A DNA stretch of 64,000 nucleotides from an uncultured Lachnospiraceae bacterium (GTDB lineage: Bacteria; Bacillota; Clostridia; Lachnospirales; Lachnospiraceae): assembly GCA_949878435.1 (NCBI GenBank), contig CATLAK010000018.1, forward strand, positions 1-64,000, written 5' to 3'. The notes under the pieces are model-generated. The model did not search any database, had not been told where the DNA came from, and was given only the letters and a program-made list of their open reading frames with translations. Position numbers and translations under genes: made by a program. Shown piece by piece: positions 14,853 to 17,015 of the stretch. Positions within the stretch are counted from its first letter, which is position 1, and each line of letters opens with the position of its first letter.

Positions 14853-15932
14853 ATGAACCGGAGAAATAGACTGCTGGCAGCGGCGGCAGGTGTGTGTACC
14901 ACCCTGTTTTTTCTTTCAGCAGAGGAAATAACCGTTCAGGCAAGTGAAAAAGAAGGCTATGATTTTTTTGGTGTGGGTGTGGCTGAAGTCCTCGATCCCA
15001 GTGCAATCAGCAATGAGCAGCCGGTGGAAGAACAGGAAGAACTGAACATCAACCAGAAATTTGAAGTCGAAAAGGAAAGAATGGAACAGGAACTGACCAT
15101 GGCCAATGTGCAGAACGCGCTTAACATCAGGGCTCAGGCCAGTGAAGATTCTGAAAAAGTAGGACTTTTATATAAGGACTGCGGCGGTACCATTTTGGAG
15201 CGCAAGGATGGCTGGACAAAGTTAAAATCCGGCAATGTGATTGGCTGGGCAAAGGACGAGTACCTTTTGTTCGGAGAAGATGCCAAGGATATGGCGGAAG
15301 ATGTGGGAAACTGGATCGTCACCCTGGACTCGTCAGCTGTCCGTGTGAGAATGGAACCAAGCGAAAAGGCGGATGTATACGGACTGCTGGCATATGAAGA
15401 TTCCGTGGAATTTATTGAGACGGTGAAGGACGGCTGGATCAGCGTTGATTTCAACGATGAGATCGGATACGTAAATTCAGAGTATGTCAATGTAAGATAC
15501 CACATTGACGAAGCCGAGAGCATGGAAGTCATAAGGGCTAGGGAACGGGAAGAAGCAGAGCGTAAGCGCAGGGCTAACCGAGGAGCAGTGGCAGCGGATG
15601 CCGATGAACTGCGGCTTTTAGGAGCGCTGATTTATTGCGAAGCGGGCAACCAGTCCTATGAGGGAATGGTAGGCGTAGGAGCAGTGGTCATGAACCGCGT
15701 AAGAAGCGGCGCTTATCCGAATACGATTCATTCTGTTATCTATGCGTCGGGGCAGTTTACCCCGGCTATGACCGGAAAGGTGGCAAGGGTCTACGAAGGA
15801 AACGTGCCGGATGCCTGCATGCAGGCGGCACAGGCGGCAATCAATGGAGAAACTACCGTGGGAGGCGCCACACACTTTAGGCGCGCCGGCAAACGGGAGG
15901 GATTCGTTTTGGGAGACCACGTATTCTGGTAA
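14853..15932 (+). CDS. secreted cell-wall hydrolase with two SH3-like domains and a SleB-type catalytic domain
   Basis: A 359-residue exported protein: a signal peptide spans residues 1-31 (RRNR then a hydrophobic run, likely cut near VQA). Two bacterial SH3-like repeats follow, at about 85-140 (ANVQNALNIRAQASEDSEKVG) and 150-215 (LDSSAVRVRMEPSEKADVYG), which should hold it to peptidoglycan. After a charged linker the C-terminal domain from about 250 is Hydrolase_2/SleB-like: LGALIYCEAGNQSYEGMVGV with its catalytic glutamate, then AVVMNRV, QFTPAM and THFRRAG. SleB relatives are spore-cortex lytic transglycosylases; this domain order is also used for vegetative wall turnover. Start ATG 14853 follows TGGAGG. 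Confidence 0.88.
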   Translation: MNRRNRLLAAAAGVCTTLFFLSAEEITVQASEKEGYDFFGVGVAEVLDPSAISNEQPVEEQEELNINQKFEVEKERMEQELTMANVQNALNIRAQASEDSEKVGLLYKDCGGTILERKDGWTKLKSGNVIGWAKDEYLLFGEDAKDMAEDVGNWIVTLDSSAVRVRMEPSEKADVYGLLAYEDSVEFIETVKDGWISVDFNDEIGYVNSEYVNVRYHIDEAESMEVIRAREREEAERKRRANRGAVAADADELRLLGALIYCEAGNQSYEGMVGVGAVVMNRVRSGAYPNTIHSVIYASGQFTPAMTGKVARVYEGNVPDACMQAAQAAINGETTVGGATHFRRAGKREGFVLGDHVFW

Positions 15933-15950
15933 AAATATGGATGGGTTTGT

Positions 15951-15987
15951 GGGCATCACGATTTGCGGGAGGTAAGTCGTGGTGCCC
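15951..15987 (+). terminator. hairpin after the wall hydrolase, weak terminator
   Basis: GGGCATCACG (15951-15960) pairs with CGTGGTGCCC (15978-15987), with one G-T. Only two T follow, so termination efficiency is uncertain. Confidence 0.4.
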
Positions 15988-16079
15988 TTATCCCTATAGC
16001 GCCGCCACTGCCGGAGAATGCCTTGCGCCCATACCGTTCCGCACTGTTACGTTTATGCCATATAAAAAGTCATTTTTTA

Positions 16080-16110
16080 TTGACATTTAAGAACTGTATG
16101 TTATTATATT
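16080..16110 (+). promoter_or_regulatory. promoter of the ToxI-like RNA
   Basis: TTGACA (16080-16085) is followed by TTATAT/TATATT at 16104-16110, an 18-19 base spacing. The start of transcription would fall right at the beginning of the ToxI-like repeat. Confidence 0.65.
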
Positions 16111-16111
16111 T

Positions 16112-16206
16112 TTAGGGTGAGTCCTACCTATAAGTGGAAGTTGTAAAAGCGATGGGACCGCCGATGGTGGTTTCACATTATGGCTATGCCTTATGGCATA
16201 GCCATA
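16112..16206 (+). ncRNA. ToxI-like antitoxin RNA of a type III toxin-antitoxin system, with its terminator
   Basis: The segment from 16114 reads AGGGTGAGTCCTACCTATAA then GTGGAAGTTGTAAAA, matching position by position the layout of known ToxI repeats as I recall them (AGGTGA, CTACCT, TAAGTG, then an A-rich end). The AGG/CCT stem that begins the ToxI pseudoknot is present. Only one such unit is visible, where characterised loci have two or more. A second stem ACCGCC-GAT-GGTGGT follows (about 16157-16171). A perfect 12-bp hairpin TATGGCTATGCC/GGCATAGCCATA (16179-16190 and 16195-16206) sits between RNA and toxin gene, as the ToxI-ToxN attenuator does. Confidence 0.65.
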
Positions 16207-16246
16207 TTTATATAATTTCTGAAATTCAAAAGTTAATGAGGTGCAA

Positions 16247-16774
16247 ATGAAGCAAGAAAGATTAAACCTGTATCTGATGGACATGAAATACATACGGAAT
16301 CTGCATAGAGCAGACGATAAAGTATCTTCGGTTTCACCACAGATAGGGAAGCAGCATCGTATTTATGTAGGGATTATTGTTTTGTGTAATAACAGAAAAT
16401 ATCTCATCCCGCTTTCCCATGCTGTTGTAAAACATACGAAAATGAAGCCGAGGGCTGATTTTGACAAGATATTTGACAGAAAGGGCAAACTGATCGGTGT
16501 CCTTAATTATAATCTTATGATTCCAGTTGAGGAGGCTCAGATATACAAAGTCAATCTAAAATCTGATTCGAACGATTCTGTAAGTGAGCGTCACTATAAG
16601 CAGCTGTGTATAGATGAACTAGCGTGGTGCAGAAAAAATCAGGAAATAATTGTAAATAAGGCTAACTGTTTGTACGATTTGTGCCGAGGTGAATCCGGGT
16701 ATAAAGGGAAAGCAAGGTGTCTTGATTTTGCGAAACTGGAACAGATATGTGATAAGTACAATTCCCGGTTTTAA
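16247..16774 (+). CDS. ToxN/AbiQ-family type III toxin endoribonuclease
   Basis: A 175-residue RNase-like toxin related to ToxN, AbiQ and CptN. These cleave cellular and their own antitoxin RNA and can abort phage infection. Family hallmarks are visible: LYLMDMKYIRNLHRADDKV at the start (the KYI..L...D.KV pattern), YVGIIVLCNNRKYLIPLSH (the GI...KY..PL strand pair), GKLIGVLNYNLMIPV, and HYKQLCIDELAWCRKNQE near the end. ATG 16247 lies close behind GAGGTG (16238-16243); GTG 16241 overlaps that site. It lies just below a ToxI-like RNA and terminator. It splits a housekeeping block, a sign of horizontal arrival. The nearest subfamily (ToxN versus CptN) cannot be settled here. Confidence 0.82.
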   Translation: MKQERLNLYLMDMKYIRNLHRADDKVSSVSPQIGKQHRIYVGIIVLCNNRKYLIPLSHAVVKHTKMKPRADFDKIFDRKGKLIGVLNYNLMIPVEEAQIYKVNLKSDSNDSVSERHYKQLCIDELAWCRKNQEIIVNKANCLYDLCRGESGYKGKARCLDFAKLEQICDKYNSRF

Positions 16775-16835
16775 AAAGAGCGAAAATACCCTTGTCTGTC
16801 ACATAATAGGGCATGATATGTCTCCCGTCCTAGAC

Positions 16836-16880
16836 GTAACAGTTCAGCCTGCCCTCCTGTACTTGCAGGCTGAACCGTTA
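16836..16880 (+). terminator. long hairpin after the toxin gene
   Basis: GTTCAGCCTGC (16842-16852) pairs perfectly with GCAGGCTGAAC (16865-16875), extended by TAAC/GTTA outside. T residues come only about 15 bases later, so it may be a terminator of modest strength or a boundary structure of the inserted locus. Confidence 0.5.
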
Positions 16881-16909
16881 CTCCTAGCCTTCCATTTTTT
16901 GCATTATAG

Positions 16910-16938
16910 TTGCCTACTTTACGTTTGTGTAGTAAAAT
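16910..16938 (+). promoter_or_regulatory. promoter of the nfeD-SPFH pair
   Basis: TTGCCT (16910-16915) and TAAAAT (16933-16938) with 17-base spacing. Confidence 0.6.
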
Positions 16939-17015
16939 ATTTTTAATGGTCAGCAGCGGCAAAATTGTAATGCTGTCCATAATATTAGTATAAGGCTATC
17001 ATCAAGGAGGGTAAA

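Follow-up and report, generated by a model that had tools for sequence, protein, structure and literature searches.

A 64,000-nucleotide stretch of an uncultured Lachnospiraceae bacterium (GCA_949878435.1, contig CATLAK010000018.1, positions 1 to 64,000; hereafter the window) carries a locus in which a ToxN endoribonuclease is probably paired with an RNA antitoxin of the ToxI type that has shrunk to a single releasable unit on each transcript. The elements found at 16080-16774 are, in this order, a promoter-like site, one ToxI-like pseudoknot unit, an AAxAG motif, a 10-bp hairpin, a terminator hairpin and a ToxN-family gene (Table 1). Judging from its sequence, we describe this locus as a type III-like system based on ToxN and do not count it as a canonical ToxIN member. 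The reading draws on the family and fold of the toxin, the conserved layout, covariation in the RNA, the AAxAG motif present in 54 of 54 single-unit loci, a 9-nt gap between promoter and unit, low dN/dS values and an asymmetric loss of the two components. The original prediction, made from the letters alone, had proposed a single ToxI-like unit in front of a ToxN gene, and this was supported by toxin family and fold, pseudoknot stems, promoter spacing and terminator.

Table 1. Features of the single-unit ToxN locus, in window coordinates
Feature	Position	Strand	Basis and remarks
Promoter	16080..16107	+	-35 TTGACA 16080-16085, -10 TATTAT 16102-16107; start predicted near 16114; conserved distance to the unit
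Single ToxI-like unit, putative H-type pseudoknot	16114..16149	+	Stems S1 and S2 (see text)
AAxAG motif (AAAAG), probable toxin cut site at the unit/hairpin junction	16145..16149	+	54/54 single-unit loci
Middle hairpin (10 bp, 3-nt loop) where a second unit would lie	16153..16175	+	Strong covariation; RNAalifold; window folding -12.8 kcal/mol
Intrinsic-terminator-like hairpin with T-rich tail	16179..16216	+	Arms 16179-16190/16195-16206; core GGCTATG/CATAGCC
ToxN/AbiQ-family endoribonuclease toxin, 175 aa	16247..16774	+	Pfam, PADLOC, fold match
Inserted module, approximate extent	16047..16888		About 36 nt instead at the empty site of a relative

Toxin gene, promoter and boundaries of the module

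The toxin gene is an intact frame of 175 codons, or of 177 if translation began at an in-frame GTG 6 nt upstream. Its product was matched by the Pfam family ToxN_toxin over nearly its full length (E-value 1.3e-39) and by the PADLOC model AbiQ (4.6e-28), and its best match among crystal structures was 4ato, an entry titled TOXN (1e-13), which we take to be the protein of Bacillus thuringiensis. A structure model built from 24 sequences reached a pLDDT of 82.7, residues 31-39 being poorly modelled. Foldseek searches with this model gave four matches with E-values below 0.001, all to ToxN or AbiQ structures (4ato, 7d8o, 4glk and 2xd0), with TM-scores by query length of 0.71-0.79, the highest being that of 4ato. 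Pfam, PADLOC and Foldseek thus agree on the 175-residue ToxN-family protein that had been predicted, and the nearest folds were those of ToxN and AbiQ when the model was checked for a fold outside this family.

Values of dN/dS between 0.04 and 0.10 in 26 close pairs (loci L010 and L059 being identical) indicated that these toxins are under purifying selection. The active site may nevertheless be unusual. Lys33, Thr52, Ser53 and Lys55 are given as catalytic residues of E. coli ToxN in the available text of PMC8860590, and residues 57-58 of the window protein, aligned with Thr52-Ser53, are Ser-His. The same pair occupied this position in 35 of the 52 single-unit loci, out of 54, in which the motif pattern was readable, whereas most other ToxN proteins carried Ser-Ser or Thr-Ser. 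A histidine in place of the catalytic Ser53 means that catalysis may differ, which counts against the preferred reading. Toxins of at least 160 aa accompanied by a single-unit RNA diverged to pairwise identities as low as 28%, suggesting an old and stable layout.

The predicted promoter is present as TTGACA and TATTAT separated by a 16-nt spacer, with 11 of 12 consensus matches, and is the sole such site in 15940-16900. Because shuffled versions of the region yielded 2.7 promoter-like sites by chance, the call is supported by the spacing conserved in relatives and not by its score. The -35 box lay 33-38 nt before the unit in the 26 relatives where it was readable. Across 53 single-unit loci, the median gap between the -10 box and the unit was 9 nt (quartiles 9-9), compared with 22 nt (quartiles 8-35) to the first unit of 75 tandem loci, whose first-unit start was taken roughly from self-alignment; promoter picks in this comparison look wrong in L022, L025 and L119. 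Such a fixed gap implies that the transcription start itself can supply the 5' end of the unit. Two loci of the first-branching subclade, L068 and L129, had a gap of 24 nt and have apparently kept a leader hairpin, and their sequences make them a possible intermediate between the two layouts.

The flanks of the locus, at 15901-16046 and 16889-16967, could be aligned to a genome of the same genus (G611) lacking the module, and a second one (G625) likewise lacked it, with fuzzier edges. With two genomes of the genus showing an empty site, the module has the appearance of an insertion some 840 bp long. An inverted repeat with 17-base arms (16836-16852 and 16865-16881), seen by eye, lies near its 3' edge.

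The predicted antitoxin unit and the hairpins behind it

The unit, AGGGTGAGTCCTACCTATAAGTGGAAGTTGTAAAAG, begins at A16114, where a ToxI-like segment had been placed beforehand. Self-alignment of the 230 nt upstream of the toxin gene revealed no repeat of it: the best score was 26, against 19 ± 4 in 12 shuffles, and corresponded to an AT-rich promoter run. Among 161 ToxN loci analyzed in the same way, those labeled tandem (threshold 44) scored 44-178, the window and its single-unit kin at most 28 and shuffles about 19. Low scores outside the single-unit clade included a mis-set start (L073, where repeats are visible), lost upstream DNA (L061 and L041), seemingly degenerate arrays (L098, L151 and L154) and, perhaps, true single units. 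The claim of only one antitoxin repeat therefore stands in so far as self-alignment can detect a second one, and the tandem array by which type III systems are recognized gives way to one unit, both in the window and in all 54 single-unit loci.

Like the RNAs of type III systems, the unit is able to form an H-type pseudoknot. In the window, stem S1 would consist of G16116-C16128, G16117-C16127 and U16118-A16126, plus G16115-U16129, and stem S2 of U16122-A16138, C16123-G16137 and C16124-G16136. The 54 single-unit loci, several of which represent the same organism reached via two routes, supplied 47 distinct RNAs for a MAFFT alignment (A2). S1 read GGT/ACC in 40 of the 47, GGA/GCC in six and GGT/ACT in one; S2, re-anchored because MAFFT had moved one arm by a column in some rows, read TCC/GGA in 44, TCC/GTGA in two, where an alternative AGTC/GACT was found, and TCC/AGA in one. 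Both stems hardly vary inside the clade, so that support for the pseudoknot has to come from outside it: over 22 classes of S2 arms from single-unit and tandem loci, own arms paired with a score of 9.64 against 7.38 ± 0.56 when permuted (0 of 2000 permutations), a value favored by the choice of each class representative according to its own pairing. The window unit alone folded no better than shuffles (z-score 0.87), and the minimum-energy fold of the window RNA pairs the 5' part of the unit with the 3' arm of the following hairpin, which again counts against the preferred reading; this competing fold was absent from the consensus of the 47 sequences.

In Rfam release 15, no family matched the window RNA above its cut-off, hits with E-values up to 10 being sub-threshold and from unrelated families, and no ToxI match was obtained at the ToxN loci of the other members and tandem relatives submitted. 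One candidate, RsaF at 16174-16269, was rejected: its 27.4 bits fall below the cut-off of 60, and the match spans the terminator hairpin.

The AAxAG motif follows the unit in every single-unit locus. In six tandem relatives from the enclosing group, it precedes units at 13 sites, and none of the six has it behind the last unit (in L099, this stretch was read directly from the sequence). That AAxAG has been retained with no unit behind it suggests continued cutting at this junction, the hairpin serving as downstream helix. ToxN enzymes are described in accessible parts of PMC8860590 as cleaving A-rich sites, typically between two A residues. Distant ToxN loci such as L037 and L038 have an AAAAAGC stretch between last unit and terminator, which makes the motif alone no proof of a role for the hairpin; to judge from their layout, the terminator may take the hairpin's part in such loci.

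The middle hairpin had escaped the original prediction. Its arms were paired in 93.1% of alignment cells, against 74.9% when shuffled and 36-52% when slid, and 82 cells were changed on both sides, against 26.7 when shuffled, such changes affecting 8 of its 10 pairs. RNAalifold found it unprompted, together with the terminator. It starts at a fixed distance of 3 nt from AAxAG in most aligned rows and sits where unit 2 lies in tandem relatives. The original prediction had offered a diverged second unit as an alternative for the 60 bases after the first; these turned out to be a simple covarying hairpin and the terminator. That such a diverged unit still folds and acts as antitoxin is highly improbable. 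The stretch does stand where unit 2 would be, and in one subclade six loci showed a weak similarity at a 50-nt lag, starting from GATGGTG, but these similarities scored 18-22 against 16-18 in shuffles, no second pseudoknot stem was predicted, and the double-sided changes in 8 of 10 pairs fit a simple hairpin.

The hairpin might also be foreign to the antitoxin, guarding the 3' side of the RNA or tuning how much transcription reads through into the toxin gene, with neutralization left to the single pseudoknot alone. Its place directly 5' of the terminator would suit such a role, as would a free sequence with kept pairing, expected of a passive structural element. The fixed 3-nt distance from AAxAG, the coincidence with unit 2 and the lack of any predicted conserved pairing competing with the terminator make this unlikely. 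An antiterminator function was set aside on the last of these grounds.

The perfect 12-bp hairpin claimed between RNA and gene was confirmed (RNA folding z-score -5.86), and with its T-rich tail it occupies the place that a terminator takes in type III loci. Its core (16181-16204) barely varies, the outer and inner pairs covarying around it, and GGCTATG was found in 44 of the 54 single-unit loci, whereas only one of the 107 other ToxN loci had it in its upstream DNA. A core held in sequence represents more constraint than termination should need.

A different reading takes the RNA as uncut: pseudoknot, hairpin and terminator stem, about 95 nt in all, would together be the antitoxin and bind one ToxN 1:1, with the hairpin at the position of the next repeat's 5' end. 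Conservation of the hairpin, and even of the terminator stem core, as parts of one RNA would agree with it; according to the available text of PMC5772629, most ToxI in cells is full-length and may occupy both of the RNA surfaces on ToxN, and the AbiF antitoxin RCd22 is uncleaved between its motifs in that of PMC12373285. We consider this reading unlikely, since an uncut RNA would not need AAxAG, the inter-unit motif of tandem relatives, which has been kept in 54 of 54 loci.

Known systems and a candidate mode of action

In toxin family and fold (4ato, 2xd0, 7d8o), the window locus resembles the ToxIN systems of B. thuringiensis, Pectobacterium atrosepticum and E. coli, with which it shares an H-type pseudoknot unit, an A-rich junction and a terminator between RNA and toxin gene. 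Its one unit compares with 2.9 repeats in B. thuringiensis and 5.5 in P. atrosepticum (PMC5086642), and with 3 to 5.6 in E. coli clusters as far as given in the available text of PMC8860590. Unlike ToxIN, it has no 5' leader before the unit and has a dedicated hairpin after the junction. The toxin is also akin to AbiQ of Lactococcus (PADLOC AbiQ, Foldseek 4glk), whose antiQ has 2.8 repeats. Minimum repeat numbers have been reported as at least 2.5 for ToxI of Pectobacterium and at least 1.8 for antiQ, 0.8 being inviable (PMC5086642), and count against the preferred reading. For CptIN of Eubacterium rectale, the accessible part of PMC4627078 describes one CptI repeat as fully antitoxic when overexpressed, natural CptI having, unlike the window RNA, two genetic repeats. 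The CptIN assembly is 2:2, so ring size can change; its toxin is distant from that of the window (Foldseek TM-score 0.48 by query length).

The AbiF/RCd22 system of Clostridioides difficile likewise sets an RNA antitoxin against a protein whose gene lies behind a terminator (excerpts of PMC12373285), but toxin and RNA structure differ and RCd22 has two motifs. Three predicted structured RNAs, HMP2_3156 (106 bp), HMP2_5421 and HMP2_14852, are reported directly upstream of ToxN in Clostridiales and Leptotrichia and were proposed as possible, uncharacterized ToxI in the portion of PMC8040213 available; compared by description only, they may include the window RNA.

A tandem repeat array is a stated criterion for type III loci (PMC5086642; also in the available text of PMC8860590), under which the window locus would be excluded, and none of 45 tabulated gut loci had fewer than 1.9 repeats (PMC6315513, Table 3). 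The single-unit clade could thus have been screened out of surveys. Our literature search, which covered some sources in part and did not extend to the founding survey (Blower 2012), retrieved no description of a single-unit ToxN antitoxin.

The reading that we consider likely, with one releasable unit per transcript, can be put as a sequence of steps. RNA polymerase would set the 5' end of the unit, making an upstream cut unnecessary, and most transcripts would end at the terminator, leaving the antitoxin in excess. ToxN would bind the junction of pseudoknot and downstream helix and cut once in AAxAG, the hairpin taking over from the second unit as the helix beyond the cut site. The cut unit would remain in the active site, and units from separate transcripts would together inhibit ToxN, as a ring or a smaller complex. 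Once transcription stops, for instance upon phage infection, the short-lived RNA would be depleted and ToxN freed. A rather improbable variant does away with the ring: pseudoknot and hairpin, perhaps with the terminator stem, would fill both RNA surfaces of one ToxN, so that repeats and ring closure would be unneeded in this clade, the altered active site having co-evolved.

The clade offers a natural test of what repeats are for, be it dose, ring assembly or the far side of the cut. If unit, cut site and simple hairpin suffice, they define a minimal type III antitoxin, and a single-unit dose might let the system fire sooner once transcription stops.

Distribution and history of the single-unit layout

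Searches of genome contigs yielded 30 relatives, and once three without a toxin start were left out, all 27 others had one unit of the same kind. A toxin tree was built from 132 of the 161 ToxN loci, 23 being dropped for length and six as identical. It contained a clade of 39 toxins (support 99/83), each with a single unit; its sister L114 and the deeper branches L045/L115, L092/L099, L047 and L057/L106/L137 were tandem. The enclosing group under midpoint rooting (50 rows, support 100/100) included two more low-scoring rows, L061 and L073. With tandem loci as nearest outgroups, the most parsimonious history involves a single change from the tandem to the single-unit state, and the presence of the layout in 27 of 27 relatives and 39 of 39 clade toxins argues against chance loss.

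Surveys with the Pfam model, on overlapping samples, detected ToxN in 18 of 37 genomes at genus level, 44 of 299 at family level, 41 of 344 at order level and 35 of 391 at class level. The three-part RNA model hit 34 of 397 genomes of the family, at 43 places. In a class-wide sample, it matched 6 of 391 genomes: three belonged to the same family, and the other three scored 36-41 bits, a range also reached by tandem loci (up to 51.6 bits, 100 of the 107 other ToxN loci being searched). No match was found in viral contigs; two phage and 78 plasmid records matched, all below 60% identity.

An assembly collapse of repeats, or a dead or decaying module, is barely credible. The window genome is indeed a 51-contig draft, and 10 of the 54 single-unit loci had toxin frames below 160 aa as read (those of L078, L125 and L126 were read from the match, no start being found). 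Against this, the layout recurs in 54 loci with 47 distinct RNAs, including records titled as strains and not as MAGs (L013 and L023), tandem ToxN loci occur in the same draft genome, and the toxin dN/dS is low.

The RNA was kept beside 39 of 39 clade toxins, and 8 of 16 RNA-model loci inspected by eye had no ToxN ORF behind them. This asymmetry, RNA without toxin and not toxin without RNA, fits an RNA needed while the toxin is intact. RNAs lacking a downstream ToxN ORF included L186, L192, L193, L187, L180 and L183, the last with an acetyltransferase-like frame (by eye) at the toxin's place. In the window's own genome, a decayed RNA copy (L169, G000:C23:10787-10880, 46 bits) had no ToxN behind it, and the next frame resembled ornithine carbamoyltransferase by eye.

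The same genome has three further ToxN places. Those on C1 and at C11:18928 each have two tandem units, and the one at C11:20103 has a single unit directly before the terminator and a TGA in the toxin frame. Two unlike ToxN loci (L003 and L004) thus stand about 0.7 kb apart at G000:C11:18928-20615, the single-unit one without a middle hairpin. Elsewhere, L041 and L061 have group II intron sequence immediately 5' of ToxN, at the place of the antitoxin RNA. The tandem units of L047 (49-nt lag), longer than those of relatives, seem to have an extra small hairpin before AAGTGG. Outside the clade, L140 encodes a 180-aa ToxN and shows, by eye, one unit with a terminator directly behind it; it may be a single-unit case of independent origin.
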